NCBI GenBank assembly: GCA_016873395.1
Contig: VGXG01000002.1
Coordinates: 1-64,000, forward strand
Length of the DNA: 64,000 nt
DNA from: Nitrospira sp.
GTDB taxonomy: Bacteria > Nitrospirota > Nitrospiria > Nitrospirales > Nitrospiraceae
Direction: 5' to 3'
A program made the position numbers and the translations under genes. Within the stretch, counting starts at the first letter, position 1, and each line of letters opens with the position of its first letter. Below, one piece after another: positions 19,000-30,823 of this stretch. The notes under the pieces were generated by a model. That model did no database searches. It saw only the letters and a program-made list of their open reading frames with translations, and was not told where the DNA came from.

Positions 19000-19747
19000 G
19001 TCGAGGCGGCGCTGAGTCAGATCCTGCAAGGGAGCCCCGCGTCTTATGGGTATCGGCTCCTGCACGCCCTGCTCAAGCGCCATGGAATCAGGTGCAATCC
19101 CAAGACGGTCTGGCGGATCGTGCAGCGACGGGGCTGGCTCGCGACCGGTCGGTCTCGCATCCGGCGCAGCGGCCGCCGGCACGAGGGCCAGGTGCGAGTG
19201 CCCGAGTCGAATCGACGCTGGGCCTCCGACATCACCGGCATTCGCGCCTGGAACGGCCAGAAGGGACGCCTAGCGATCCTGATCGACTGTGCCGATCGGA
19301 TGATCCTGGCCTGGCGGTTTGCGCGCCGGATCACGGCCGAGGACCTGGCCGAGATGTTGCGAGAAGCGGTCTTCCGTCGCTTCGGCGAGCACCGCGCCGG
19401 CGCCACGGGCATCGAGTTCCTGAGCGACAATGGCCCGGAGTACACATCGCATCGGTTCCGGCCCTTCGTGGAGAAAATGGGCTTGGTGCCTTGTCATACG
19501 CCGAGGCGGAGTCCAGAGTCGAATGGCTTGGCGGAGGCCTTCTTCGGGAGCTTCAAGCGGGATTATGTCTATCAGGCGTGTCTCGAGACCTTGGAGGAGG
19601 TGGGGCGCCAGATCCCGATCTGGATCCAGCATTACAACGAGCAGGCACCCCACAGTGCCTTACAGATGCGCGCACCCGCGGAGTTCTATGCGGAATGGAT
19701 CGTCAGAAACCTACAACGGCCTGTCCAAAACTAAGTGGGGCAGTACA
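18990..19747 (+). mobile_element. Right half of an IS3-type element
   Basis: It contains the transposase C-terminal part (orfB) and the right inverted repeat (19719-19747), which reads inward as TGTACTGCCCCACTTA..TGGACAGG. The left end and orfA are missing here. A left half of a closely similar element lies at 31227-31530 in the same orientation, and a miniature copy of both ends lies at 3158-3386. Confidence 0.8.
19000..19734 (+). pseudogene. IS3-type transposase OrfB, N-terminus missing
   Basis: The frame runs from about PDVEAALSQIL through YGYRLLHALLKRHGI to a retroviral-type integrase core. Visible DDE residues are D in RWASDITGI, D in FLSDNGPEY and E in SNGLAEAFFGSF. The catalytic domain is whole; roughly 40-50 N-terminal residues that IS3 OrfB proteins usually have are missing, cut at the cheW junction. 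The nearest internal start is the ATG at 19046 in another frame, so it is unlikely to be active alone. Confidence 0.85.
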
Positions 19748-19785: not shown

Positions 19786-20697
19786 TCAGAGCGGCCGGCC
19801 GGCTAATGCATCAAGGCAGCGGTCCAGGGCGACGAAGTCCTCCAGGGTTTGGATGCCTCTCTCCGCCAGATGCGGCTGGAACTGCGGCACCACGCGGCCA
19901 CCAGCGGCGATCGGACAGTGGCTCCCGACCGACGAGGACAGTTCCTGCAAGAAGGCGGCCGCCTCGGGCTCCGAAGACGGCGTCGTCAAGGACAGCAGCA
20001 GCAGGCTGGGTCGGATCTGCGTGCAGAAACTCGCGAGCGAATCCAGGGGAACGAGGGCTCCGAGATAATAGACGCGACAGCCCCTGGCGCGGCAATGATA
20101 GGCCACGGTCTGCGCGCCGATCTCGTGGGCCTCCGTGGGCGGACAAGCCACCACGATCTCGGGCCCCCCTTCATTCACCGGCAAGTGGTTCATCGCGGAA
20201 AAGAGCTTCTGCTGCACCTGTCTGGTCACATAATGCTCCACCGCTACGTTGAGCCGGCCGTCATACCACAGTTGACCGACTCGCTCCTGCAGCGGCAGAA
20301 GAATGCCGTGGAGTGCCTCCTCAAAAGGGATCACCGCCACCGCCCCGTTGAGCTTCCGCTCGAAGACCGCCCGGTCGAGCGGCTCGAGGGCCGCGATCAA
20401 CTCGCCCAGCACGCGGTCGTAGAGAGTGGCGGCTCGCGCCGCCGCCTGCACGGGCACCGCTTTCATCCGCGCCAGCAATTCATCATGCCCGAGCGCAGCG
20501 AGGTCCCCGATCGAGTGACCCTTGTCCATTTCGGACTTGACGTAGCGGAGCAGGGAGACGTCTTCGTCCGTGTAAATGCGATACCGATTGGATCCCCGGC
20601 TCGGCTGCACCAAGCCATAACGCCTCTCCCAGACGCGAATCACGTCTTTCGATAAGCCGGTGAGTTTCGCAACTCTATGAATTCTATGTGTATTCAT
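19786..20697 (-). CDS. CarH/LitR-type B12-dependent photoreceptor, MerR family repressor
   Basis: A 303-residue regulator. Residues 4-70 are a MerR-type winged helix (HRVAKLTGLSKDVIRVWERR). Residues 95-165 are a helical light-sensing cap with the CarH signature W-x9-E-H (Trp144, Glu154, His155). Residues 178-300 are a cobalamin-binding Rossmann domain with E-x-H-x-x-G (Glu189, His191, Gly194), where His191 would be the lower cobalt ligand. In known CarH proteins adenosylcobalamin gives a DNA-binding tetramer in the dark, and light breaks it apart. The ATG at 20697 is fixed by the HTH and lies only about 15 bases past its -10 box. It is divergent from the zinc-ribbon/SUMF1/photolyase genes it probably represses. 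Confidence 0.92.
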   Translation of the reverse strand: MNTHRIHRVAKLTGLSKDVIRVWERRYGLVQPSRGSNRYRIYTDEDVSLLRYVKSEMDKGHSIGDLAALGHDELLARMKAVPVQAAARAATLYDRVLGELIAALEPLDRAVFERKLNGAVAVIPFEEALHGILLPLQERVGQLWYDGRLNVAVEHYVTRQVQQKLFSAMNHLPVNEGGPEIVVACPPTEAHEIGAQTVAYHCRARGCRVYYLGALVPLDSLASFCTQIRPSLLLLSLTTPSSEPEAAAFLQELSSSVGSHCPIAAGGRVVPQFQPHLAERGIQTLEDFVALDRCLDALAGRPL

Positions 20698-20712
20698 ATT
20701 TTTGAGGCCACA

Positions 20713-20741
20713 TTACTACCATTATGTCTAATGTATGTCAA
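20713..20741 (-). promoter_or_regulatory. carH promoter
   Basis: On the minus strand: TTGACA (20741-20736), a 17-base spacer and TAGTAA (20718-20713). Predicted start is about 20706, leaving fewer than ten leader bases before the ATG. No ribosome site is present. Confidence 0.65.
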
Positions 20742-20775
20742 ATATTTTTTACAAATACTCTTGACACATTTGACA
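20720..20775. promoter_or_regulatory. Putative CarH operator repeats
   Basis: On the carH side two adjacent 11-base direct repeats, TTGACATACAT and TAGACATAATG (20741-20720, minus strand), overlap the -35 box. On the other side TTGACA occurs twice, 9 bases apart (20761-20766 and 20770-20775), again over the -35 box. Characterised CarH operators are direct repeats of about 11 bases covering the -35 element; the match is by pattern, not by experiment. Confidence 0.6.
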
Positions 20776-20789
20776 AAATGCCTTATACA
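20761..20789 (+). promoter_or_regulatory. Promoter of the photolyase/SUMF1 gene run
   Basis: TTGACA (20761-20766), exactly 17 bases, then TATACA (20784-20789): close to a consensus sigma70 promoter in an AT-rich island. Transcription would start near 20796. The first gene begins at 20854. Confidence 0.75.
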
Positions 20790-20853
20790 TTCGACGCAAC
20801 ATTGGACGCAACGGCCGAGATCGCTCGCATGAAAGGGAGGATGGAGGGAAGCC

Positions 20854-21222
20854 ATGGCATCAGCCATCGCGAAACTCAACGCTAGGGCGGATCAAACCAG
20901 GACCGGCCAGGTCGCCGACAAGGCCGCCTGCGAAAGATGCGGCGGCTTGATGGTGCGGGAATGCTACGAGGACTTGTGGGTTGATCAGGAACCGAGCTGC
21001 TTCGACGCGTGGCGGTGTGTCCAATGCGGAAACGTCCTCGATGCGGTGATCGAGAGAAACAGGCTCCATCCCGAGCAGGCGGTCAGCCTGCACAACACAT
21101 GGGCTTCGGACCTCTCGGCCCCTATTCTCACGCAGGAAGGAGGGCATATCTCCGGTCAGTCGGCAGCGCAGTCAAACCAGGGCGCGCCTAACGGCGCCCC
21201 ATTAGGAGGAGAAAGGATATGA
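20854..21222 (+). CDS. Zinc-ribbon protein, first of two paralogues
   Basis: A 122-residue protein with two CxxC knuckles (CERCGGLMV near residue 26 and CVQCGNVLD near 55), flanking a WVDQE segment. The Gly/Ala/Gln-rich C-terminal tail looks disordered. The same arrangement (C-x-x-C-x-G-L-M-V .. C-x-x-C-G-x-V-L-D-x-x-I-x-x-N-R) recurs in the protein at 24634. It is a likely metal-binding cytosolic protein; its role is unknown. The ribosome site GGAGGG precedes the ATG at 20854. Its TGA overlaps the next ATG (ATGA), so translation is coupled to the first SUMF1 gene. Confidence 0.75.
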   Translation: MASAIAKLNARADQTRTGQVADKAACERCGGLMVRECYEDLWVDQEPSCFDAWRCVQCGNVLDAVIERNRLHPEQAVSLHNTWASDLSAPILTQEGGHISGQSAAQSNQGAPNGAPLGGERI

Positions 21223-22199
21223 GACACCACACAGCCATCACCGTGTCGGCCATAGCGGTAGTCCTGACAGCGCAACTGACGGGACCGGCCGTCGGCGCGC
21301 CCACCCAGGTGCCCACGAAAGCTCCCACGAACATGGTCCTGGTCCCCCGCGGCGAGTTCAAGATGGGCAGCGCCATGCATAGCGACGAATCCCTGCACAA
21401 CGTCGTGCTGGACGCCTACTACCTTGACAAGTACGAGGTCTCCAACCAGCGCTACGGCGAATTCATGAAGGCCACCGGCCACGCCGCCCCAGCCTACTGG
21501 GACGACAAGCGCCTCAACAAGCCCGAGCAGCCGGTCGTCGGTGTCAACTGGCTCGATGCCAAGGCCTTCTGCGAATTCGACGGCAAGCGCCTCCCCACCG
21601 AGGCGGAGTGGGAAAAGGCCGCCAAGGGGCCTGCGGGGGACAACCATTATCCCTGGGGACACAGGCGGGTCGACACCAAGCACGCGAACTACGGCCAGAA
21701 CGTCGGCTTCACGACAGCGGTGGATTCCTATCCCGAGGGCGTCAGCGGCTACGGCGCCTACAACATGGCCGGCAACGTCTTCGAATGGGTCGCGGACTGG
21801 TACGACCCCAAGTATTACAACCAGAGCCCAGCCTTGAATCCGCAAGGCCCCGAGAAGGCCTACAAGATGGGCCACATGGGAGAGATGAAAGTGCTGCGCG
21901 GCGGCTCCTGGCTGGCCCCCGAGCAGTCCCTGCATACCTCCCATCGCTTCTGGAATCGGCCCGAGAACAATTCCTACGGGGTCGGCCTGGGCTTCCGTTG
22001 CGCCATGAATGCGCCCGAGGATTTCCTCGAGGCCAGCCGCGAAGCCTACATCCAGGCCTTGATCAGCATGGGGGCCGAGAAGCCCGGCGACGCCCTGGCG
22101 TCCATTGGAGAGGCCCTCAAGGGCGATCCGGGAAATCGCGAATACCGGCAGCTGCTGACCGATATCAAGAAGCAGATGAAGACCATCAAGAAAAAGTAA
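21219..22199 (+). CDS. Secreted SUMF1/FGE-fold protein, paralogue A
   Basis: A 326-residue protein with signal peptide (cleavage near PAVGA) and an FGE-sulfatase (SUMF1) domain at about 38-265. Family landmarks: MVLVPRGEFKMGS, YYLDKYEVSN, GKRLPTEAEWEKAAKG, NVFEWVADWYD, RGGSW and GFRC. True formylglycine-generating enzymes carry two Cys before GFRC; here that stretch reads HRFWNRPENN, so the catalytic pair is missing and an oxidase role is unlikely. A helical 55-residue tail follows. It may be a binding protein; function is unknown. RBS GGAGGAG lies upstream. Confidence 0.85.
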   Translation: MRHHTAITVSAIAVVLTAQLTGPAVGAPTQVPTKAPTNMVLVPRGEFKMGSAMHSDESLHNVVLDAYYLDKYEVSNQRYGEFMKATGHAAPAYWDDKRLNKPEQPVVGVNWLDAKAFCEFDGKRLPTEAEWEKAAKGPAGDNHYPWGHRRVDTKHANYGQNVGFTTAVDSYPEGVSGYGAYNMAGNVFEWVADWYDPKYYNQSPALNPQGPEKAYKMGHMGEMKVLRGGSWLAPEQSLHTSHRFWNRPENNSYGVGLGFRCAMNAPEDFLEASREAYIQALISMGAEKPGDALASIGEALKGDPGNREYRQLLTDIKKQMKTIKKK

Positions 22200-22265
22200 C
22201 CGGGCCGCGAGGGGCTGGCAGAGGCCCGCCCCTCGCCCCCCACCCGCGACAGAGGAGGCTCGCAC

Positions 22266-23360
22266 ATGAACTCGACATGGACCCGACCGTTCCTTCCCCT
22301 TCTCATCCTGGCCGGAGCCGTCATCATCGTGCCGATGACGACTGCGGCAGCCGATGAGAAGACCGCAGCCATCAAGGATATGGCCTACATTCCCTTCGGC
22401 GAATTTTTGATGGGCAGCACCACCCAGGCCAATGCGCCGAGTCAGCCTGCGGGCAAGGCCCGGACGGCCAAGGAGAGGCTGAAAGACAGTCCCCAGTCGT
22501 GGGCGAACTTTCATGACGAAGCCCCGGCTCACCCCGTTGTCCTGGACGCCTATTACCTCGACAAGTACGAAGTCTCCAACCGGCGCTACGGCGAATTCAT
22601 GACGGCCACCGGCCACGCCGCCCCTGCCTACTGGGACGACAAGCGCCTCAACAAGCCCGAGCAGCCGGTCGTCGGGATCACCTGGTACGACGCCAAGGCC
22701 TTCTGCGAATTCGACGGCAAGCGCCTCCCCACCGAGGCGGAGTGGGAAAAAGCCGCCAAAGGGCCCCAGGGATTCCGCTATCCATGGGGCAACGAGCTGG
22801 ACCCCGCGCGGGCGAATTATGGCGGACACGACCAGCAAGCAGGCACCAAGCCGGTCGGTTCCTACCCCAACGGCGTCAGCGGCTACGGGGTCCACGATAT
22901 GGCGGGCAACGTCTTTGAATGGGTCCAGGACTGGTACGACCCGAAGTTGTACCGCCCCGACCTCTCCATCAATCCCACCGGTCCGGTCAAGCCGGTCTGG
23001 ATGGGCGGCACCGGGACCTATGTAGATCGCCTCACAGTGGGCGAGAAACGCGTCCTGCGAGGCGGCTCCTGGATCGCGGCGCCCCAGTCCATCACGACGA
23101 CTCATCGGTTTTGGAACCATCCCATGAACAACAGTTACGGAGTCGGGCTGGGATTTCGCTGCGCCCTCACCGCCCCGGCGACGGTCCCCGACCACCTGCG
23201 GGAGGCTTACATCAATACCTATTCGAGCATGGGCAAGGAGCAATGGGTGGAAGCCAGGGGGCATCTGGACCGGGCCCTGAGTTTCGACCCGGCCAATCCC
23301 GAACTGCGGGAGCTCGACGCCCTTCTGAACGCCAAAATGAAGACCGGGAAACGGTTCTGA
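22266..23360 (+). CDS. Secreted SUMF1/FGE-fold protein, paralogue B
   Basis: A 364-residue protein with signal peptide (to TTAAA) and a SUMF1 domain carrying the same landmarks as paralogue A (IPFGEFLMGS, KYEVSNRRYG, LPTEAEWEKAAKG, FEWVQDWYD, RGGSW, GFRC). It has an insert of about 35 residues after GSTTQ. The region before GFRC (HRFWNHPMNN) lacks the catalytic Cys pair. A stretch of about 170 bases (22591-22765) is nearly identical to 21457-21631 of paralogue A, while flanking parts have diverged. RBS AGAGGAGG precedes the ATG. Confidence 0.85.
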   Translation: MNSTWTRPFLPLLILAGAVIIVPMTTAAADEKTAAIKDMAYIPFGEFLMGSTTQANAPSQPAGKARTAKERLKDSPQSWANFHDEAPAHPVVLDAYYLDKYEVSNRRYGEFMTATGHAAPAYWDDKRLNKPEQPVVGITWYDAKAFCEFDGKRLPTEAEWEKAAKGPQGFRYPWGNELDPARANYGGHDQQAGTKPVGSYPNGVSGYGVHDMAGNVFEWVQDWYDPKLYRPDLSINPTGPVKPVWMGGTGTYVDRLTVGEKRVLRGGSWIAAPQSITTTHRFWNHPMNNSYGVGLGFRCALTAPATVPDHLREAYINTYSSMGKEQWVEARGHLDRALSFDPANPELRELDALLNAKMKTGKRF

Positions 23361-23382
23361 CCCATTGCAAGGAGCCGTGCCT

Positions 23383-23730
23383 ATGAACGGACGACACATC
23401 ATACGGTGGGCCCGGCCGGCGGTCTGGCTGGTCCTGGCCCTGGCGTTAGCGGCCCCGGGCCGGGCCGAGTCATCCGGCACGATCCAGGCCGCGAGGCTGG
23501 CCGTCGATGAGGCCTGGGACACCTTTCATGCGGCCGCCATCGGCGGCACCTTGAGGTCCCCGGAAGTCCAGACCCAGGTGGAGCGGGACCTGCATCTGGC
23601 TCGCGCCCGGCTACTGGAGGCGCAGCGCGCGATGGATCGCGGCGACCCCGGCACGGCCCGGCGGCTGATCGACCACGTGACGGACCTGACGGCCCGCATC
23701 ATCGCGGCGAGCCGTGAGCCCAAGCCATGA
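23383..23730 (+). CDS. Small exported helical protein
   Basis: A 115-residue protein with a signal peptide (hydrophobic run to PGRAES) and a mature part that is almost wholly helical with regular Ala, Arg, Glu and Asp (about residues 35-110). This is compatible with a periplasmic helical hairpin. Family unknown. AAGGAG sits 8 bases before the ATG at 23383; the earlier TTG at 23365 is less likely. It lies between two SUMF1 genes, 22 and 28 bases away, so it is part of the same operon. Confidence 0.65.
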   Translation: MNGRHIIRWARPAVWLVLALALAAPGRAESSGTIQAARLAVDEAWDTFHAAAIGGTLRSPEVQTQVERDLHLARARLLEAQRAMDRGDPGTARRLIDHVTDLTARIIAASREPKP

Positions 23731-23758
23731 CCTTGAAGGAATTTCAGAAGGAGTGACG

Positions 23759-24574
23759 ATGCGGAGACAACGACGGTGGAACCCCCTGCTCCTGGTGACG
23801 GCCGCGTGGCTGGCCCTGGCCTGCCCCCAGGCCATGGCGCAAAGCCTCCCGACGGACCCCCGCGACCCGGTTCGCATGATCACGATTCCCGCAGGACCGT
23901 TTCTGATGGGCAGCCGGGATGGCACGGGACAGGAGGATGAGCGGCCGATGCGCAGCGTCTTCGTGGACGCCTTCAGTCTGGACGAAGTGGAGGTGACCAA
24001 CGACCGCTATCTCCGCTTCGTGCAGGCCACGGGGCACAAGCTCCCTCCGAATCCCTATGGCGAGGGACCCCTGTCCGCCCTGCGTGGGATCGGAAATCTG
24101 CCGGTGGTGCAGGTCACCTGGCACGATGCCCAGGATTACTGCGAGTGGGCGGGAAAGCGACTGCCGACCGAGGCCGAGTGGGAGAAGGCCGCCAGAGGGA
24201 CCGATGGCCGGATCTACCCCTGGGGCAATGAGTCTCCGACGCCCCAGCGAGCCAACTTCGACAGGGAGTGGGACGGCGTCAAGACGCTGCTGCCGGTCGG
24301 CTCGCTTCCCGAAGGACCCTCCCCCTATGGCGTGGCGGATCTGGCGGGCAATGCCCGCGAATGGGTGGCCGACTGGTACGACCCCGCCTACTACCGGACG
24401 GGGCGGAGCCGAAACCCGGCCGGCCCGGACGAGGGGATTCTGAAAGGCATCCGGGGCGGGTCCTGGCGGCACAACGCCAACGACATCCGGGCCGCCATGC
24501 GCGGCAAGGGCGGGTTTGCTTTGAGGACGGACGGGACCGGCTTCCGCTGCGCGCGCGGCGCCGATGGAAACTAG
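23759..24574 (+). CDS. Secreted SUMF1/FGE-fold protein, paralogue C
   Basis: A 271-residue protein with signal peptide (to AMAQ) and a compact SUMF1 domain: ITIPAGPFLMGS, VEVTNDRYLRF, GKRLPTEAEWEKAARG, AREWVADWYD, IRGGSW and a terminal GFRCARG. Before GFRC it reads IRAAMRGKGGFALRTDG with no Cys, so again no catalytic pair. It is more distant from A and B than they are from each other. The ATG at 23759 has AAGGAG at 23748-23753; the upstream GTG at 23714 would overlap the preceding gene and spoil the signal peptide. Confidence 0.85.
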   Translation: MRRQRRWNPLLLVTAAWLALACPQAMAQSLPTDPRDPVRMITIPAGPFLMGSRDGTGQEDERPMRSVFVDAFSLDEVEVTNDRYLRFVQATGHKLPPNPYGEGPLSALRGIGNLPVVQVTWHDAQDYCEWAGKRLPTEAEWEKAARGTDGRIYPWGNESPTPQRANFDREWDGVKTLLPVGSLPEGPSPYGVADLAGNAREWVADWYDPAYYRTGRSRNPAGPDEGILKGIRGGSWRHNANDIRAAMRGKGGFALRTDGTGFRCARGADGN

Positions 24575-24633
24575 CAAGATGACGCGTGAACGGCAGGACC
24601 CTGCCCTGGACAGGGGAAAGGTGGCATGCGGCC

Positions 24634-24993
24634 GTGACCAAGACACCGCACCAGTCGGACGGCGCCAGCGAACAGCCGATCCACTGTCCCCGCTGTCGGG
24701 GACTGATGGTCGTGGCGACTTACATGGACCTGCAAGACGACACCGGCCAGATCGAATTCATGGCCCATCGCTGCATGCTCTGCGGCGAGGTGCTCGACCC
24801 GATGATCCTGCGCAACCGTTTGGCCGAACGGCCGAGTCTCTTGCGCGGCACCAAGCAGCGTCGTTTCCCCCAGGCCGTGACAACCTCCCCGCCGACCGGC
24901 CAGGGGGGCCCAGCGGGCCCCGCGCCGGAAGCGGAGGAGCCTGGCCAGCGCGGCGACGATCAACCTAATCGTGAGGCCCCGGACGAGGCGTAA
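24634..24993 (+). CDS. Zinc-ribbon protein, second of two paralogues
   Basis: About 119 residues with two CxxC knuckles (CPRCRGLMVV and CMLCGEVLDPMILRNR), in the same spacing and context as the protein at 20854. This is followed by a polar Pro/Glu-rich tail. The GTG at 24634 has a GGGGAAAGG site, at slightly long spacing; an in-frame GTG at 24586 is possible but has no ribosome site. Having one paralogue on each side of the SUMF1 genes suggests the pair works with them. Confidence 0.7.
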   Translation: MTKTPHQSDGASEQPIHCPRCRGLMVVATYMDLQDDTGQIEFMAHRCMLCGEVLDPMILRNRLAERPSLLRGTKQRRFPQAVTTSPPTGQGGPAGPAPEAEEPGQRGDDQPNREAPDEA

Positions 24994-25021
24994 GACGCCA
25001 GCCGGACAAGGAGTGCCGACC

Positions 25022-26008
25022 ATGCGCGACCATGAAGAAGGCAGCAAGCGAATCGTCATCGCCGGAGGCACCGGTTTTGTCGGTCGGCCGCTGGCCCTCC
25101 AATCGACGCGCGAAGGCCACCGCGTCACCGTGCTGACGCGCGATTTCGGCCGCGCCACCCTTCTCCTGGGCCCGTCCTTGCACATCGCAGAATGGGACGG
25201 CCGCAGCGACGGGCCATGGATGGCGGCCTTGGAGGGGGCGGATGCCGTGATCAACCTGGCCGGCGAGCCCATTGCCGAGGCCCGATGGACCCCGGCTCGC
25301 AAGCGGCTCTTGTGGGACAGCCGTGTGGAAGCCACGGCGTCCTTGGTGCGGGCCCTGTCGCGGACAGCCTCCCGCCCCCAGGTCCTGATCAACGCCTCCG
25401 GCATCGGGATTTACGGTGCCAGCGCCGGCCTCCCGCTGACCGAAAACGCGCCGGCGGGCTCGGGCTATCTGGCAGCGCTGTCGCAAGCCTGGGAAGCGGA
25501 GGCCGCTAAGGCCGAATATTTGGGTCTCCGTGTGGTCCGCATGCGGTTCGGCATGGTGCTCGGGCCGGATGGAGGGGCCCTGCCCCGGATGCTGCTCCCC
25601 TTCCGGTCGTTCCTCGGGGGGCCGGTCATGCCCGGCGACCAGTGGGTGTCGTGGATCCATCGGCAAGACCTCCTCGACCTCATTCGCTGGGCCGTCATGA
25701 CCCCCCAGGTTAGCGGCCCGATCAACGGCGTGGCCCCAGGCGCCGTCACCATGACGGAGTTCTGTCGGACGTTGGGCCGGGTACTGGGGCGACCTTCCTG
25801 GATGCCGGTCCCGGCCTTCGCCTTGCGGGTCGCCCTAGGCGAGCTCTCCACCGCGATGACCACGGGACAGCGGGTGGCGCCGGCCGTGGCTCTCCACGGC
25901 GGTTTCCGCTTCCGTTATCCGGAGCTGACGGCGGCCCTGGAGCAGATTGTCGGAGCGGATCGTTGGACGGCCGGGTCGAGACCGGCCTCCGGCCGACAGG
26001 AACCCTGA
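25022..26008 (+). CDS. TIGR01777/SDR39U1-type NAD(P)-dependent epimerase
   Basis: A 328-residue extended SDR. It has the Rossmann motif GGTGFVGRPL near residue 14, the INLAGEPI strand typical of the TIGR01777 (YfcH/SDR39U1) family, and a conserved ASGIGIYG segment (family Tyr). The C-terminal part has WVSWIHRQDLLDLI and the VGVAPGAVTM-like region. The physiological substrate of the family is unknown. Members are frequently linked to LitR/CarH light-response loci together with photolyase, which matches this context. AAGGAG precedes the ATG at 25022. Confidence 0.88.
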   Translation: MRDHEEGSKRIVIAGGTGFVGRPLALQSTREGHRVTVLTRDFGRATLLLGPSLHIAEWDGRSDGPWMAALEGADAVINLAGEPIAEARWTPARKRLLWDSRVEATASLVRALSRTASRPQVLINASGIGIYGASAGLPLTENAPAGSGYLAALSQAWEAEAAKAEYLGLRVVRMRFGMVLGPDGGALPRMLLPFRSFLGGPVMPGDQWVSWIHRQDLLDLIRWAVMTPQVSGPINGVAPGAVTMTEFCRTLGRVLGRPSWMPVPAFALRVALGELSTAMTTGQRVAPAVALHGGFRFRYPELTAALEQIVGADRWTAGSRPASGRQEP

Positions 26009-26040
26009 CGTGCGCAACCGCAGGGAAAGGAGGAAAGACC

Positions 26041-26385
26041 ATGACTTACACAGGCCTAATCATAGGCGGTGCTCTGATGCTCGCGCTGTCCGGAGCGGTC
26101 GGATGTGCGGGCCCGCCATCGCCCGAACCGCGGGCATCGCAGGTGCCGATGTCGCAGGACGCCGGCGACCTGGCCTTTCAGTATAAACGCCAGGCCACGA
26201 CTCTCCACGAGCTGGCGCAACGCTACGACCTGGAAGCCCGGCTGCTGTGGAGCCTGAAGGGAGGCCAGCATCCCGAGACGCTGGGCAAGCTCGATCTGGC
26301 CCGATCCCTCTGGGCCCAGGCCGAGGAGGCCGACGACTTGGCGCGGGCCTATCGCCGGCAGATACCCCATAACCGGACCTACTGA
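26041..26385 (+). CDS. Small putative lipoprotein
   Basis: A 114-residue protein whose N-terminus is hydrophobic and ends in AVGC (possible lipobox, Cys near residue 22). The mature part is helical and charged, with repeated Ala/Glu/Arg and the pattern LARSLWAQAEEADDLARAYRR. The ribosome site GGAGG is well placed. Family not recognised. It sits inside the gene run, 32 bases after the epimerase. Confidence 0.65.
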   Translation: MTYTGLIIGGALMLALSGAVGCAGPPSPEPRASQVPMSQDAGDLAFQYKRQATTLHELAQRYDLEARLLWSLKGGQHPETLGKLDLARSLWAQAEEADDLARAYRRQIPHNRTY

Positions 26386-26402
26386 CCCATAAGGAGCGGA
26401 CA

Positions 26403-26651
26403 ATGGGACATGGGGCGATACATCCAGACGGTGGCGGCCGGGCTGCTGATCGGAAAAGTCCTGCTGCTGTCGCTGGTCGTCGCCCCGGTGCTCGCCAAAC
26501 AGCTGGAGCCCGACTGCGCCTTTGGTCGCGCGGTGGGGGCGCCGTTCCCCGCCTATTACGCGCTGGGGATGGGAGCGGCCTGCATCGGCGGGCGGTGCAG
26601 ATCAATGGAGCGGTGCTCCTGGCCGGATTCGTGATTCTCGGCATCGCCTAG
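26403..26651 (+). pseudogene. Truncated, frameshifted DUF4149 (TMEM205-like) membrane protein
   Basis: From 26410 the frame reads like the N-terminus of DUF4149 proteins (LLIGKVLLLSLVVAPVL, then FPAYYALGMG), a small family of multi-helix membrane proteins of about 140 residues. Near 26590 the matching sequence moves to the other frame (AVQINGAVLLAGFVIL) and stops at 26651, after only about 80 codons. This is either a decayed gene or a sequencing indel combined with a natural short form. Confidence 0.55.
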
Positions 26652-26685
26652 CGAGCGTTGTACGTACTCAACACGGAGGAAGACC

Positions 26686-27178
26686 ATGCGCAAGCCATCA
26701 TATGCAGCCACCCTGCCCAGTCCCTCACGCCGCGACCTGCTGATCCGAGGCGCCTGGGTCGCCCTGGGCCTGCTCGCCCTGGGACGGACAAATCGGGCGC
26801 TGGCCGCAGAGGCCCGGCCCGGTACGAAAGACGGCCACGGCGAGGGAGGCTACCGGCGGGATCCCAACCTTCCCGCGGGCGTCGTTGGCATCGCCTTGCA
26901 GCTCTCGGCCGGACGGGTGGGAGACCCGGCGGCGCTTTACGTTGCCACCGTTCACCCGGAGGGCCAGCGAGCAGAGCGGGCCTGACGCACGGTGACGAGT
27001 TGGTCTCCGTGGACGGCACCACCCTGGCAGGAAAGACTTACGAGCAGGTCGTCGCCATGGTGCGGGGCGAAGTCGGGACCTCCGTGAAGCTGGGCGTGAA
27101 GTGGGATGCCACCGTGCACGAACTGACCCTCATCCGCGTGGCCGAGGAGATCTCTACCGCAAGAAGAAGACGACGTGA
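26686..27178 (+). pseudogene. Tat-exported PDZ-domain protein, frameshifted
   Basis: The N-terminus has a twin-arginine signal (SRRDLL followed by a hydrophobic stretch to RALAAE). From GVVGIALQL a PDZ domain begins and continues in the other frame as GLTHGDELVSVDGTTLAGKT to LTLIRVAEE. One base seems to be missing near 26958-26962 (after VATVHP). A second shift near 27150 would give a natural end YRKKKTT with the TGA at 27176-27178. PDZ domains bind protein C-termini in the periplasm. Two shifts suggest decay, or homopolymer errors in the assembly. Confidence 0.6.
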
Positions 27179-27425
27179 CGGAGGGGACGCCGTGCCTCGT
27201 CCAAGCCCTGACCCGACGGACCCTGATTGGTGGTGGCTGCGGCCCGACCGGGATCAATGCGAGGGGCGGCGAAGGCGTCGGGCCGGGACGGCGGGCGCCG
27301 TACCCTCCTGCGGTGCTCCGCCGCCGCGCAGGATGGTCCCGGCTTCCGGCCGGGATCATCCTGCGCCCGGCCCGGGGCGGATGACTGACGCGATGCACAG
27401 AATTACGAGCAGACGAGGTCCCATC
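27179..27425. other. Gene-free GC-rich gap
   Basis: A very GC-rich stretch between the PDZ remnant and the next gene. One frame stays open through it and joins the neighbours, but its composition (runs of Arg, Pro, Gly) does not look like protein. I see no promoter or repeat. Confidence 0.45.
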
Positions 27426-27974
27426 ATGATGCCCACGCTCAAACTGCGTATCACCCTCCGCCCTCTCCTCGGGCTGATCCTGGCGCTGGTGCTCACGCTC
27501 CTGATCCCCGCCCAGAGCAGGGCCGAGGATGGCGGGCCCGCGGCCCGCCATACCGGACAGGCCAAGATCTTTCTGGCCGCCGGGGATTATCGCCATGCGC
27601 TCGAAGCCTGCGAGCAGTTGATCCGGGAGAGGCCGTCGGCCGCCGGTTACGTCTATCTGACTTACGTCTACCAGGCCATCGACGGGTACCTGGAGCATCT
27701 GTCACGGACCGAACAGTGGGGCCTCGTGGATCAACTGTACTTCAACCTGGCTTACCGGGACCCGCAGGACCTGGTGGATCCTCCGGGCGGCATGGCGCGC
27801 ATGGCCAAGGAAATGATCCAGACCAGCGTCCGCCAGCAGTCCGATGTGAGCGCCGGCATGGCCATGCGGCTCGACCGGCAGCAGACGGAAACGCTTTGGA
27901 AGCAACAGACCGCCTGGCGCGGGGCCAAGCCGGACGCGTGGTGGACCGCCGCGCCCCCGGCCTGGCAGTGGTGA
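27426..27974 (+). CDS. Exported TPR-like protein
   Basis: A 182-residue protein with a signal peptide (to QSRAED), followed by two helix-turn-helix units resembling TPRs (ARHTGQAKIFLAAGDYRHAL, then ACEQLIRERPSAAGYVYLTY). The tail is Trp- and Gln-rich and ends PPAWQW. Function unknown. The ATG at 27426 was chosen because the signal peptide starts there, although the open frame extends far upstream. It belongs to the same plus-strand gene run. Confidence 0.6.
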   Translation: MMPTLKLRITLRPLLGLILALVLTLLIPAQSRAEDGGPAARHTGQAKIFLAAGDYRHALEACEQLIRERPSAAGYVYLTYVYQAIDGYLEHLSRTEQWGLVDQLYFNLAYRDPQDLVDPPGGMARMAKEMIQTSVRQQSDVSAGMAMRLDRQQTETLWKQQTAWRGAKPDAWWTAAPPAWQW

Positions 27975-28012
27975 CGGCCCGGCGCCTGCGCCTGGAGCGA
28001 AGGAGCGCGCGC

Positions 28013-28453
28013 ATGGAAACGGCAATGCATCGGACACCACCCGGACGGGACATCCAGCTGCTCGGCGGCCTATTCTTGATCGTGGGGCTCCTCGACCTGA
28101 TCCTCATCGCCGTGTATCCGGACTACGCCCTCAGGATCTTCGGCACCAGGCTCGAGGGAGTCCTGGGGTTCATGGTCAAGCTGCAATCTCCGGCCCTGCA
28201 CCTGGCCATCGGCTACGGGTTCCTTTTCTTGCGCCCCTGGGCGTGGGGGCTCAGCCTCGCCTACGCCGGCTTCGGGATTGCCAGCGAAGCCATGAACCAG
28301 ACAGCCTGGGGACTCCATCCGCTCCGCGCGGCCTTCATGGCGGCGACCGTCGTCTTCGCCTGCTATCTGGTATGGCGCCGCGAGGTTTTCGCCGGGCCGG
28401 AGGCCGCGCCGTCCCCCCACGGCCGCGCCCGGCGGGAGGTCCCGCGGCCATGA
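28013..28453 (+). CDS. Four-helix membrane protein, unknown
   Basis: A 146-residue protein with four hydrophobic segments (about residues 15-35, 50-70, 75-92 and 100-122) and a basic, Pro-rich C-terminus. No domain recognised. AAGGAG precedes the ATG at 28013. Its stop overlaps the photolyase start (ATGA), which ties its expression to photolyase. Confidence 0.65.
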   Translation: METAMHRTPPGRDIQLLGGLFLIVGLLDLILIAVYPDYALRIFGTRLEGVLGFMVKLQSPALHLAIGYGFLFLRPWAWGLSLAYAGFGIASEAMNQTAWGLHPLRAAFMAATVVFACYLVWRREVFAGPEAAPSPHGRARREVPRP

Positions 28454-29874
28454 GAGGGCTCGTCTGGTTCAGGCGCGACCTGCGGGTGCACGACCAGCCG
28501 GCCTTGTCGGCGGCCTGTGCCGAGTGCGACGAGATGATCCCCCTCTTCATCTTCGACGAGCCTCTGCTGCGGTCGAAGGAATACGGCTCGGCCGGAGTGC
28601 AGTTCATGCTCGACTGCCTCGACGACCTGGCGCAGTCGCTCGCGGGCCGGGGGCTGTCTCTCAGGTGGCGGCGCGGCGAGCCGGTGGAGGAATTGCTGCG
28701 GGCGGCCCGGGAGTGGCGCATCGATACGGTCTATTGGAATCGGGACTACGAGCCGGCCGCCACGCAGCGGGATGCGGCCGCCGCGCAGGCACTCCTCCGG
28801 CGGGGGATCCGGGTCATGAGCTTCAAGGACCATGTGGCCTTCGAAACCGGGGAGATTTCCTCTTCGACGGGAACGCCGCTGCAACGCTTTAGCGCCTACC
28901 GGGCTCGGTGGTGGGCGCAGTGGCGCGTCTCCGCGCCCCCGGTCCTGGCCCCGCCGCCCCCCGGGGGCGGGAAGGCCTCCCCGGTCGAGTGTCCCTCGGC
29001 CAGCGACCTCGGGTACGAACCGATTCGTCGCAGCATGCCCGGCGGCGAGTCGGAGGCGCGGCGCCGCCTGCGCTGGTTTCTGAACGAGCCGATCCGGGAT
29101 TATGCCGCCGCGCGCAACTGTCCGGCGGCGGACGGCACGTCGCGCCTGTCGGCGCATTTCCGCTACGGGACGGTCTCCTCGCGCAGCGCCGTCCATGTCG
29201 CCCTCGCCACCCTGGGACGGCAGGGCCAGACGTGGAAGACCGGGGTGCAGACCTGGATCGACGAGTTGATCTGGCGCGATTTCTTCCAGCACATCCTGGC
29301 GGCCTTTCCGCGGGTGGCGACGGGCCCCTTCAGGCCCGCCCCGCCCGCGCCGTACCGGACGGACGACAGGCTATTGACGGCCTGGAGCCAGGGACGCACC
29401 GGCTTTCCGCTGGTGGACGCCGGAATGCGCCAGCTCCGGCAGACCGGCTGGATGCCCAACCGGGTGCGCATGGTGGCGGCCTCCTTCCTCGTCAAGGACC
29501 TGGGTCTCGACTGGCGGGCGGGCGAGCGCTATTTCATGGAGCAGTTACTCGACGCCGACCTGGCTGCCAACAACGGGAACTGGCAATGGTGTGCCTCGAC
29601 CGGCACGGATGCCATGCCGGGCTATCGGATCTTCAACCCGTCCCTCCAGGCCAGGAAATTCGATCCCGACGGAACCTATATCCGCCGCTTCCTGCCGGAA
29701 CTCGCTTCTGTGCCCGCCCGATTCGTTCACGCCCCGGAGCGGATGGGCGTGGAAGAACAGGACCGCTATGGCTGCCGCATCGGACGGGATTACCCCTATC
29801 CGGTCGTGGATCACGAAGACGCCAAACGCCAATACCTCGCGGGCCAGCGGCGGCGGGAGGATCCGCATGTCTGA
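28450..29874 (+). CDS. phrB: Deoxyribodipyrimidine photolyase (class I CPD type)
   Basis: A 474-residue flavoprotein that uses blue light to split pyrimidine dimers. The N-terminal antenna domain starts LVWFRRDLRVHD. The C-terminal FAD domain carries the usual blocks: TSRLSAHFRYG, WRDFFQH, GRTGFPLVDAGMRQL, GWMPNRVRM, then DWRAGERYF and NNGNWQW with the electron-transfer Trp. Length is normal. A 6-4 type or cryptochrome is less likely, as the CPD-type blocks are intact, but this was judged by eye. It overlaps its neighbours on both sides (4 and 8 bases), so translation is coupled. The CarH operator upstream gives a reason for light control. Confidence 0.95.
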   Translation: MRGLVWFRRDLRVHDQPALSAACAECDEMIPLFIFDEPLLRSKEYGSAGVQFMLDCLDDLAQSLAGRGLSLRWRRGEPVEELLRAAREWRIDTVYWNRDYEPAATQRDAAAAQALLRRGIRVMSFKDHVAFETGEISSSTGTPLQRFSAYRARWWAQWRVSAPPVLAPPPPGGGKASPVECPSASDLGYEPIRRSMPGGESEARRRLRWFLNEPIRDYAAARNCPAADGTSRLSAHFRYGTVSSRSAVHVALATLGRQGQTWKTGVQTWIDELIWRDFFQHILAAFPRVATGPFRPAPPAPYRTDDRLLTAWSQGRTGFPLVDAGMRQLRQTGWMPNRVRMVAASFLVKDLGLDWRAGERYFMEQLLDADLAANNGNWQWCASTGTDAMPGYRIFNPSLQARKFDPDGTYIRRFLPELASVPARFVHAPERMGVEEQDRYGCRIGRDYPYPVVDHEDAKRQYLAGQRRREDPHV

Positions 29875-30823
29875 CACGCATCCCATTCGCATCGGCATCA
29901 GCCACTGCCTTCTCGGAGCCGAAGTCCGGTTTGACGGCGGGCACAAACGCGACAGCTTCCTGGCCGACACGCTCAGCCAGCATGTCCAATGGGTCCCCGT
30001 CTGCCCCGAGGTCGAGGCCGGGTTCGGCACTCCGCGGGAAGCCATGCGGTTGGTCGGCCCGTCCGATGAGCCCGGGCTCGTCACCATCCGGACGGGCCGC
30101 GACTTGACGCCGGAGATGCACCGTTTCTCCCACCGGCGCCTGCGCGAGCTCTCGGCCCAGAATCTGTCCGGCTTCGTGTTCAAGAAGGACTCGCCGAGTT
30201 GCGGGATCGAACGGGTACGGCTGTACTCCTCCCACGGCATACCCGGCAGACAGGGGATTGGGCTCTTCGCCCGCAGCTTCATGCAACGCTTCCCTCTGAT
30301 CCCGGTCGAGGAGGAGGGCCGCCTGAACGACCCGGTGCTGCGCGAGAACTTCCTCGAGCGCGTGTTTTGCTATCACCGCTGGCAGGACGCCACCCGGAAA
30401 GGCTTCGCCCGCCGGACGATCGTGCAATTCCACACCGAACACAAGTATCTGCTCCTGGCCCACAGCCAGCCCCACTTCCAGGAGCTCGGCCGGATGGTGG
30501 GCCAGGCCAGCCGCTACAGCCCGACCCAGTTGGCCCAGCAATACGGGGCGCGGTTCATGGAGGCGCTGAAAGTCAAGGCCACCGTCCGCAAACACGTCAA
30601 CGTGCTCGAGCATATTCTGGGTCACTTCACCGAACGGCTCACCGGCGCCGAACGCGGGGAGCTTCACGGCACGATCCGCGACTACCACCGGGGACTGACG
30701 CCCCTGGTGGTCCCGCTGACCCTGGTGAAGCATTACGTGCGCCGCTTCGACATCGCCTATATGAGGAGTCAGGTGTATCTGAATCCGCACCCCAAGGAAC
30801 TGATGCTGCGCAACCACGTGTGA
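29867..30823 (+). CDS. YbgA-like protein (DUF523-DUF1722 fusion)
   Basis: A 318-residue cytosolic protein. DUF523 (about residues 6-150) has GISHCLLGAEVRFDGGHKR, CPEVEAGFG, and KKDSPSCG with conserved Cys. DUF1722 (about 190-310) contains FHTEHKYLLLAHSQ and the LVPLTL-KHYV region. The function of either domain is not established. The pair is recurrently encoded next to photolyases and in CarH/LitR regulons, as here. It starts 8 bases inside the photolyase gene and ends the gene run. Confidence 0.9.
   Translation: MSDTHPIRIGISHCLLGAEVRFDGGHKRDSFLADTLSQHVQWVPVCPEVEAGFGTPREAMRLVGPSDEPGLVTIRTGRDLTPEMHRFSHRRLRELSAQNLSGFVFKKDSPSCGIERVRLYSSHGIPGRQGIGLFARSFMQRFPLIPVEEEGRLNDPVLRENFLERVFCYHRWQDATRKGFARRTIVQFHTEHKYLLLAHSQPHFQELGRMVGQASRYSPTQLAQQYGARFMEALKVKATVRKHVNVLEHILGHFTERLTGAERGELHGTIRDYHRGLTPLVVPLTLVKHYVRRFDIAYMRSQVYLNPHPKELMLRNHV

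Follow-up and report, generated by a model that had tools for sequence, protein, structure and literature searches.

Introduction

The operators of the B12-dependent regulator CarH are composed of 11-bp direct repeats with the pattern nnnnTnnACAn (PMC9304148), and a review gives the consensus as nAnnTnnACAn (PMC8156234). In T. thermophilus and Bacillus megaterium, CarH is an AdoCbl-bound tetramer in the dark, and its operators are described as three or four tandem units in the same orientation, one of which holds the -35 box (PMC9304148, PMC8156234). A CarH site in Sorangium cellulosum lies over two divergent promoters, including that on the carH side (crtI-carH), and is associated with carotenoid genes, while the CarA/CarH operator of Myxococcus xanthus covers about 55 bp, with the -35 box within one of five same-direction repeats or pseudorepeats (PMC9304148). 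The class II LitR of Pseudomonas has the four-helix part only, and governs a photolyase gene, not carotenoid genes alone (PMC9758184).

The DNA analyzed here (the window) is a stretch of 64,000 nucleotides from Nitrospira sp. (contig VGXG01000002.1, positions 1 to 64,000). Most of the named relatives are Nitrospira, which places the window in Nitrospiraceae. Nitrospira are nitrifiers. Literature searches returned no paper on CarH or LitR in Nitrospira, and the only co-mention found concerns Leptospirillum. The window contains a carH gene divergent from a photolyase cluster, and the intergenic region resembles the known systems in several respects. It has tandem 11-bp nnnnTnnACAn units with the -35 box in one of them, as in T. 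thermophilus and B. megaterium; it extends over two divergent promoters, as in S. cellulosum; its core is about 55 bp long, as in M. xanthus; and a LitR/CarH-family regulator would govern a photolyase gene, as in Pseudomonas.

There are also differences. The units form two pairs that face away from each other across a central spacer, in place of a run in one orientation, and no mirrored pairs are described for the S. cellulosum sites in the account of that system (PMC9304148). One of the pairs has a spacing of 9 bp, and the A at consensus position 2 is missing. The divergent genes are a photolyase cluster rather than carotenoid genes, and the regulator has both B12 domains rather than the four-helix part only.

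Overall organization of the intergenic region

The features of the locus are listed in Table 1. We infer, with a probability of roughly 0.75, that this region is a bidirectional operator of the adjacent CarH, bound in a manner dependent on light and B12, through which both sides, including carH itself, would be repressed in the dark. This reading is based on the agreement with the published unit and spacing, the conservation of the repeats, their association with CarH across genomes, an 11-bp divergent pair in deep branches, and a copy of the operator at a sigma-factor gene. Against it, the passages on known CarH operators describe single-orientation sites and no 9-bp pair, consensus position 2 deviates, operators are present in three genomes (G006, G096 and G163) where intact CarH was not found, and the window protein has Tyr145 at a position discussed below.

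Table 1. Features of the carH/photolyase-cluster intergenic region and its flanking genes (window coordinates)
Feature	Position	Strand	Evidence
carH, MerR-type regulator with two B12-binding domains, 303 aa	19786-20697	-	Pfam, PDB by sequence, PDB by fold
Proposed carH -10, TAGTAA, 17-bp spacer, weak match	20713-20718	-	T, A, T at columns 23, 24, 28 conserved in relatives
carH-side repeat 2, ACATTAGACAT, 11 bp from repeat 1	20724-20734	-	TnnACA at +11 in 70/98 regions
carH-side repeat 1, ATATTTGACAT, contains carH -35 TTGACA (20741-20736)	20735-20745	-	TnnACA at index in 92/98 regions
Central AT-rich 11-bp spacer between repeat pairs	20746-20756		19-bp gap between TTGACA boxes
Divergent-side repeat 1, ACTCTTGACAC, contains divergent -35 TTGACA (20761-20766)	20757-20767	+	-35 match 6/6 in 92/98 regions, 5/6 in 6
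Divergent-side repeat 2, ACATTTGACAA, 9 bp from repeat 1	20766-20776	+	Letters; spacing in relatives
Proposed divergent -10, TATACA, 17-bp spacer	20784-20789	+	Sequence; TnnACA at index in 60/81 regions
Decayed start-site repeats, ACATTCGACGC (20787-20797) and ACATTGGACGC (20799-20809), 12 bp apart	20787-20809	+	Letters; TnnACR in relatives
First cluster gene, small Cys-rich protein, zinc-ribbon-like by eye	20854-21222	+	ORF; no Pfam match
Rest of cluster: FGE-sulfatase-like (three), epimerase/DUF1731, PDZ protein, photolyase (28243-29874), desulfurase/DUF1722 (29591-30823)	21219-30823	+	Pfam

The carH-side repeat pair

TTGACATACAT and TAGACATAATG adjoin on the minus (carH) strand, from 20741 to 20720, and are identical at 7 of 11 letters; they are the two adjacent 11-mers that a first-pass annotation of this DNA had placed over the carH -35 box. 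Two tandem nnnnTnnACAn units are found over this box. The review consensus is not reproduced, as each of the four core units has T or C at position 2. A bare TnnACA-N5-TnnACA has one match in the window, which is not above chance (0.48 expected; also found in 42 of 100 shuffles), and with such an expectation the 11-bp pair was not trusted before conservation had been assessed.

A regular expression gave 126 carH starts in 138 loci, of which 99 were distinct and 98 had upstream regions of sufficient length, and it passed over some carH-bearing loci (L065, L067, L084). The carH-side pair is recognizable in all 98 distinct Nitrospirota regions. The pattern TTGACANACATTRGACA is matched at 16 of 16 positions in 40 of them, at 15 in 33, at 14 in 18, and at 13 in 7. 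The 17 columns of the pair have 0.98-2.0 bits, compared to 0.07-0.26 in the last six leader columns shown; these values are partly built in, since each alignment row was positioned by its best match to the carH-side pattern. In the same regions, TnnACA motifs on one strand occur 87 times at a spacing of 11 (shuffle mean 4.1) and 70 times at a spacing of 9 (shuffle mean 3.9). Comparison among relatives had been named as a check in the first-pass annotation, and both repeat pairs are conserved in the 98 carH upstream regions. The reality of both pairs is judged from position and conservation, not from frequency in the window alone, and by its sequence conservation the carH-side pair is a real operator.

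The divergent-side and start-site repeats

On the plus strand, TTGACA begins at 20761 and at 20770, which bears out the earlier observation of two such motifs 9 bp apart over the other -35 box. With one mismatch or fewer, a TTGACA pair at 9 bp is expected 0.09 times and is present in 9 of 100 shuffles, and is rarer than the 11-bp TnnACA pair. The heading under which this arrangement was first reported, 11-base repeats over both -35 boxes, has to be corrected, as the spacing of the divergent pair is 9 bp. The statement that CarH binds repeats of this length over the -35 region fits the carH side, with its 11-bp spacing and the unit given in PMC9304148; over the divergent -35 box the window has no 11-bp pair.

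The divergent spacing is 9 bp in 77 of the 98 regions, 10 bp in 6, 11 bp in 5, and ambiguous in 10. On the CarH tree, the 11-bp pair is found in two deep branches, the 10-bp pair in one clade (support 100/94), and the 9-bp pair elsewhere. With the root placed at the midpoint, the 9-bp spacing looks derived. The second divergent unit is kept in relatives as TGGACA or TAGACA, not as TTGACA.

Further repeats are located over the divergent start site. In the window this array has shrunk to TCGACG and TGGACG, 12 bp apart. Among relatives, TnnACR is present at index 30 in 78 of 98 rows and at index 52 in 64, and a full unit at index 41 in 17. These counts cover all 98 rows; the count for the divergent -10 in Table 1 covers the 81 rows in which a 9-bp pair is clear. 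Runs with 11-bp periodicity are seen in some rows of the deep branches, for example at 42-53-64 (L018) and 41-52-63 (L063). A single 11-bp grid for the start-site repeats and the core was rejected, as the two are about 3 bp out of phase, and for this reason they are treated separately. The start-site repeats, which are pronounced in relatives but have decayed in the window, probably add CarH binding at this position.

Back-to-back geometry

The outermost TTGACA boxes of the two strands are separated by 19 bases in the window, which with nnnnTnnACAn modules leaves the 11-bp central spacer. The gap between the opposing -35 boxes is 19 bp in 68 of the 98 regions and 18-20 bp in 93, with ties in the -35 search resolved towards 19 bp. 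Its length is maintained even though the letters of the spacer are mostly poorly conserved. The two repeat pairs face outward, with about 11 bp between them, and make up a back-to-back unit some 55 bp long (55 bp if both pairs had 11-bp spacing; 53 bp in the window, 20724-20776). As the pairs are 11 bp apart, the repeats lie on roughly the same helix face. In total, the window has two units on the carH side, two on the opposite strand 9 bp apart, and a degenerate pair, 12 bp apart, at the divergent start site. As the published operators are described as same-orientation runs (PMC9304148), mirrored binding of CarH is a prediction. This geometry, together with the start-site repeats and the candidate sigma-factor target described next, goes beyond the first-pass annotation.

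A sigma-70-type factor as a likely second target

A sigma-70-type factor matches in 147 of 175 family genomes, and 30 of its loci were examined. The operator is found upstream of the gene in the 13 closest loci (L190-L202), with 14-16 of 16 positions matching. The best score at the other 17, which are paralogs with unrelated regulation, is 8-11 of 16, so that no operator is assigned there. The copy analyzed with Pfam has sigma regions 1.2, 2, 3 and 4. On the opposite strand, TnnACR is present 18-20 bp away in 12 of the 13 operators, with a second motif at 29-30 bp in 5 and at 8-9 bp in 2. A glutathione peroxidase gene is divergent from this operator, nearly whole in 8 of the 13 loci, as fragments in 3 and absent in 2, and it was found in none of the 17 loci that lack the operator. 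CarH is present in 11 of the 13 genomes. The sigma-70-type factor is likely to be a further target of CarH in some members of the family. The window genome has no such factor at E 1e-120.

The idea that the divergent half of the sigma operator decays upon loss of the peroxidase was dropped. An 11-bp opposite pair is seen by eye in 6 of 8 loci with a near-full-length gene compared to 1 of 5 others, which is not significant. In two of the loci, L198 and L202, the second unit is inside the spacer (4 of 8 compared to 1 of 5 with both set aside).

The sigma-factor loci also bear on a narrower reading, in which CarH uses the carH-side 11-bp pair only, for autoregulation, and the divergent TTGACA motifs are a -35 box and an unused copy with a spacing of 9 bp that is unfit for binding. 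The prevalence of that spacing (77 of 98 regions) is consistent with this, as is the description of known CarH sites as 11-bp tandem repeats (PMC9304148). However, a second unit maintained as TGGACA or TAGACA is not a second -35 box, the divergent pair is 11 bp apart in the deep branches, and the repeats run on beyond the -10. Moreover, the opposite unit of the sigma operator is mostly TAGACA or TGGACA, departing from the -35 consensus, at the same 18-20 bp distance. Use of the carH side alone is consequently considered unlikely.

Association of the repeats with CarH across genomes

The exact 16-mer TTGACAAACATTRGAC is present in 75 of the 175 family genomes, 73 with CarH (E 1e-60 or better) and 2 without; 36 others have CarH without the exact 16-mer, and 64 have neither. 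The Fisher p value for this association is 7e-19, uncorrected for kinship, and as the genomes are related the counts are not independent. A reversed control of the 16-mer gave no matches. The window genome itself has CarH and no exact TTGACAAACATTRGAC, owing to a T for A.

There are 83 exact sites, 70 of which are just upstream of a CarH match, with coordinates compared by eye. Among the other 13, 3 are at contig ends starting in carH, 3 are upstream of broken carH genes, 5 are upstream of the sigma-factor gene, and 2 are upstream of purA. The purA sites (L177 and L179, genomes G088 and G089 of one genus) are probably a single chance site, and purA was rejected as a target; by our own arithmetic, about half a chance site is expected over the family. 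The 17-mer in its window form, TTGACATACATTRGACA, is found at four places, the window and three sigma-factor loci. Beyond the window site, TTGACANACATTRGACA has 7 matches with 3 mismatches in its own genome, compared to 3 in the reversed control, and further CarH sites in this genome were not accepted on that basis. Named loci amounting to 1.18 Mb contain 81 sites that score at least 13 and are located away from the carH starts recognized by the script. By eye, many of these are missed carH starts or additional repeats within the same intergenic regions, and the rest are weak or unexplained.

The first FGE gene of the cluster (E 1e-90) is present in 105 genomes, 101 of which have CarH; the four exceptions are G106, G163, G078 and G006. 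In G106, intact operators are found at a contig end that cuts carH, and the locus of G078 stops at a contig end. Both operators are intact in G163, where carH is degraded alongside them (by eye) and no intact CarH was found. G006 has an exact TTGACACATTGGACA upstream of the FGE gene (L220, at about 2114) and no CarH at E 0.001; this site may be a vestige or the mark of another regulator. G096 has the sigma-factor operator, and intact CarH was not found in it.

BldC, a MerR-like regulator, reportedly reads direct repeats, and a protein of this kind, rather than CarH, could own the sites. The operators that persist in G006, G096 and G163 would be explained by such a regulator. On the other hand, TTGACAAACATTRGAC follows CarH across the family, the unit fits that given for CarH in PMC9304148, and an absent CarH may reflect assembly loss or recent decay, as the degraded gene of G163 illustrates. 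We regard a different owner as quite improbable.

The two proposed promoters

A scan of positions 20600-20900 found no sigma-70-type sites under a rule that accepts only -10 boxes with A as the second letter and T as the last. Both -10 elements in Table 1 were proposed on the basis of 17-bp spacing and conserved columns in relatives. The carH mRNA is predicted from the sequence to be nearly leaderless, with a leader of about 0-9 nt, and no ribosome site was seen by eye upstream of carH in the window. The TTGACA box is 35-42 bp ahead of the start codon in 91 of the 98 carH regions, and 44 bp in the window.

That the repeats are simply overlapping sigma-70 promoter elements, read by no regulator, would suit the perfect -35 boxes in both first units and the conserved -10 positions, but is highly improbable. 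Conservation extends through columns 6-16 within the spacer of the carH promoter and also across the start site on the divergent side, and the exact 16-mer has few sites per genome, mostly at carH.

The CarH protein

The product of carH has the Pfam domains MerR_1, B12-binding_2 and B12-binding. Its best matches in the Protein Data Bank are T. thermophilus CarH/LitR by sequence (about 5e-27), and T. thermophilus CarH by fold (5c8f, 5c8d and 5c8e). The predicted model has a mean pLDDT of 88.0 and a pTM of 0.67. The top 12 fold matches have query TM-scores of 0.51-0.59 with large rmsd, probably due to domain placement in the model. Both the W-x9-EH motif and the cobalamin motif E-x-H-x-x-G are found in the protein. 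Residues W144, E154, H155, E189 and H191 are unchanged across 15 aligned CarH rows, and our pattern for the E-x-H motif fits 94 of 98 rows. The identification as CarH is thus supported.

One residue differs. His132, the upper cobalt ligand of the light state in T. thermophilus CarH, is replaced by Tyr145 (codon 20263-20265, minus strand), so this feature of class I LitR/CarH photoreceptors is absent from the window protein. The equivalent residue in the 98 CarH rows is His in 94, Tyr in 2 and Arg in 1, and the motif is broken in 1. The H132A mutant of CarH is reported to be mostly tetrameric after light in a paper that also cites an earlier report of dissociation, and the strict need for this residue is disputed (PMC10442372). 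By analogy with this mutant, the window protein may respond poorly to light.

Model for regulation

In the proposed bidirectional operator, two tandem repeats cover the carH -35 box, and two facing the opposite way cover the -35 box and the spacer on the divergent side. When it is dark, CarH carrying AdoCbl would be bound to these repeats, either as a tetramer or as a pair of dimers, and would deny RNA polymerase access to the two promoters, keeping carH and the photolyase cluster repressed. The first-pass annotation had suggested that one protein could repress both promoters, its own among them, and this is the most likely reading. In the light, the Co-C bond would be broken and CarH would leave the DNA, allowing expression of both.

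More tentatively, the arrangement may represent a new design, in which mirrored repeat pairs, one 11-bp unit apart, seat two CarH dimers back to back over about 55 bp, on roughly the same side of the helix, and both divergent promoters are shut at once. The same unit might then make CarH a switch for light and oxidative stress in Nitrospira, with carH and the photolyase cluster as targets and, in part of the family, the sigma-70-type factor and the divergent glutathione peroxidase. If so, CarH repeats would be used in mirror orientation, unlike in the CarH operators described in PMC9304148 and PMC8156234, and a B12 light switch would control a sigma-70-type factor. B12-based light sensing in Nitrospira would then have a concrete operator and regulon, and the natural series of 9-, 10- and 11-bp pairs allows one to ask how much error in spacing CarH tolerates.

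The photolyase cluster and neighboring genes

The gene order of the cluster is the same, by eye, in Ca. Nitrospira defluvii (L040), and the plus-strand genes are presumed to form one transcript. Three FGE-sulfatase-like proteins (21219-24574) are encoded within the cluster. On the other side of the operator, a transposase gene with an integrase core (rve) is located just downstream of carH, at 19120-19734.
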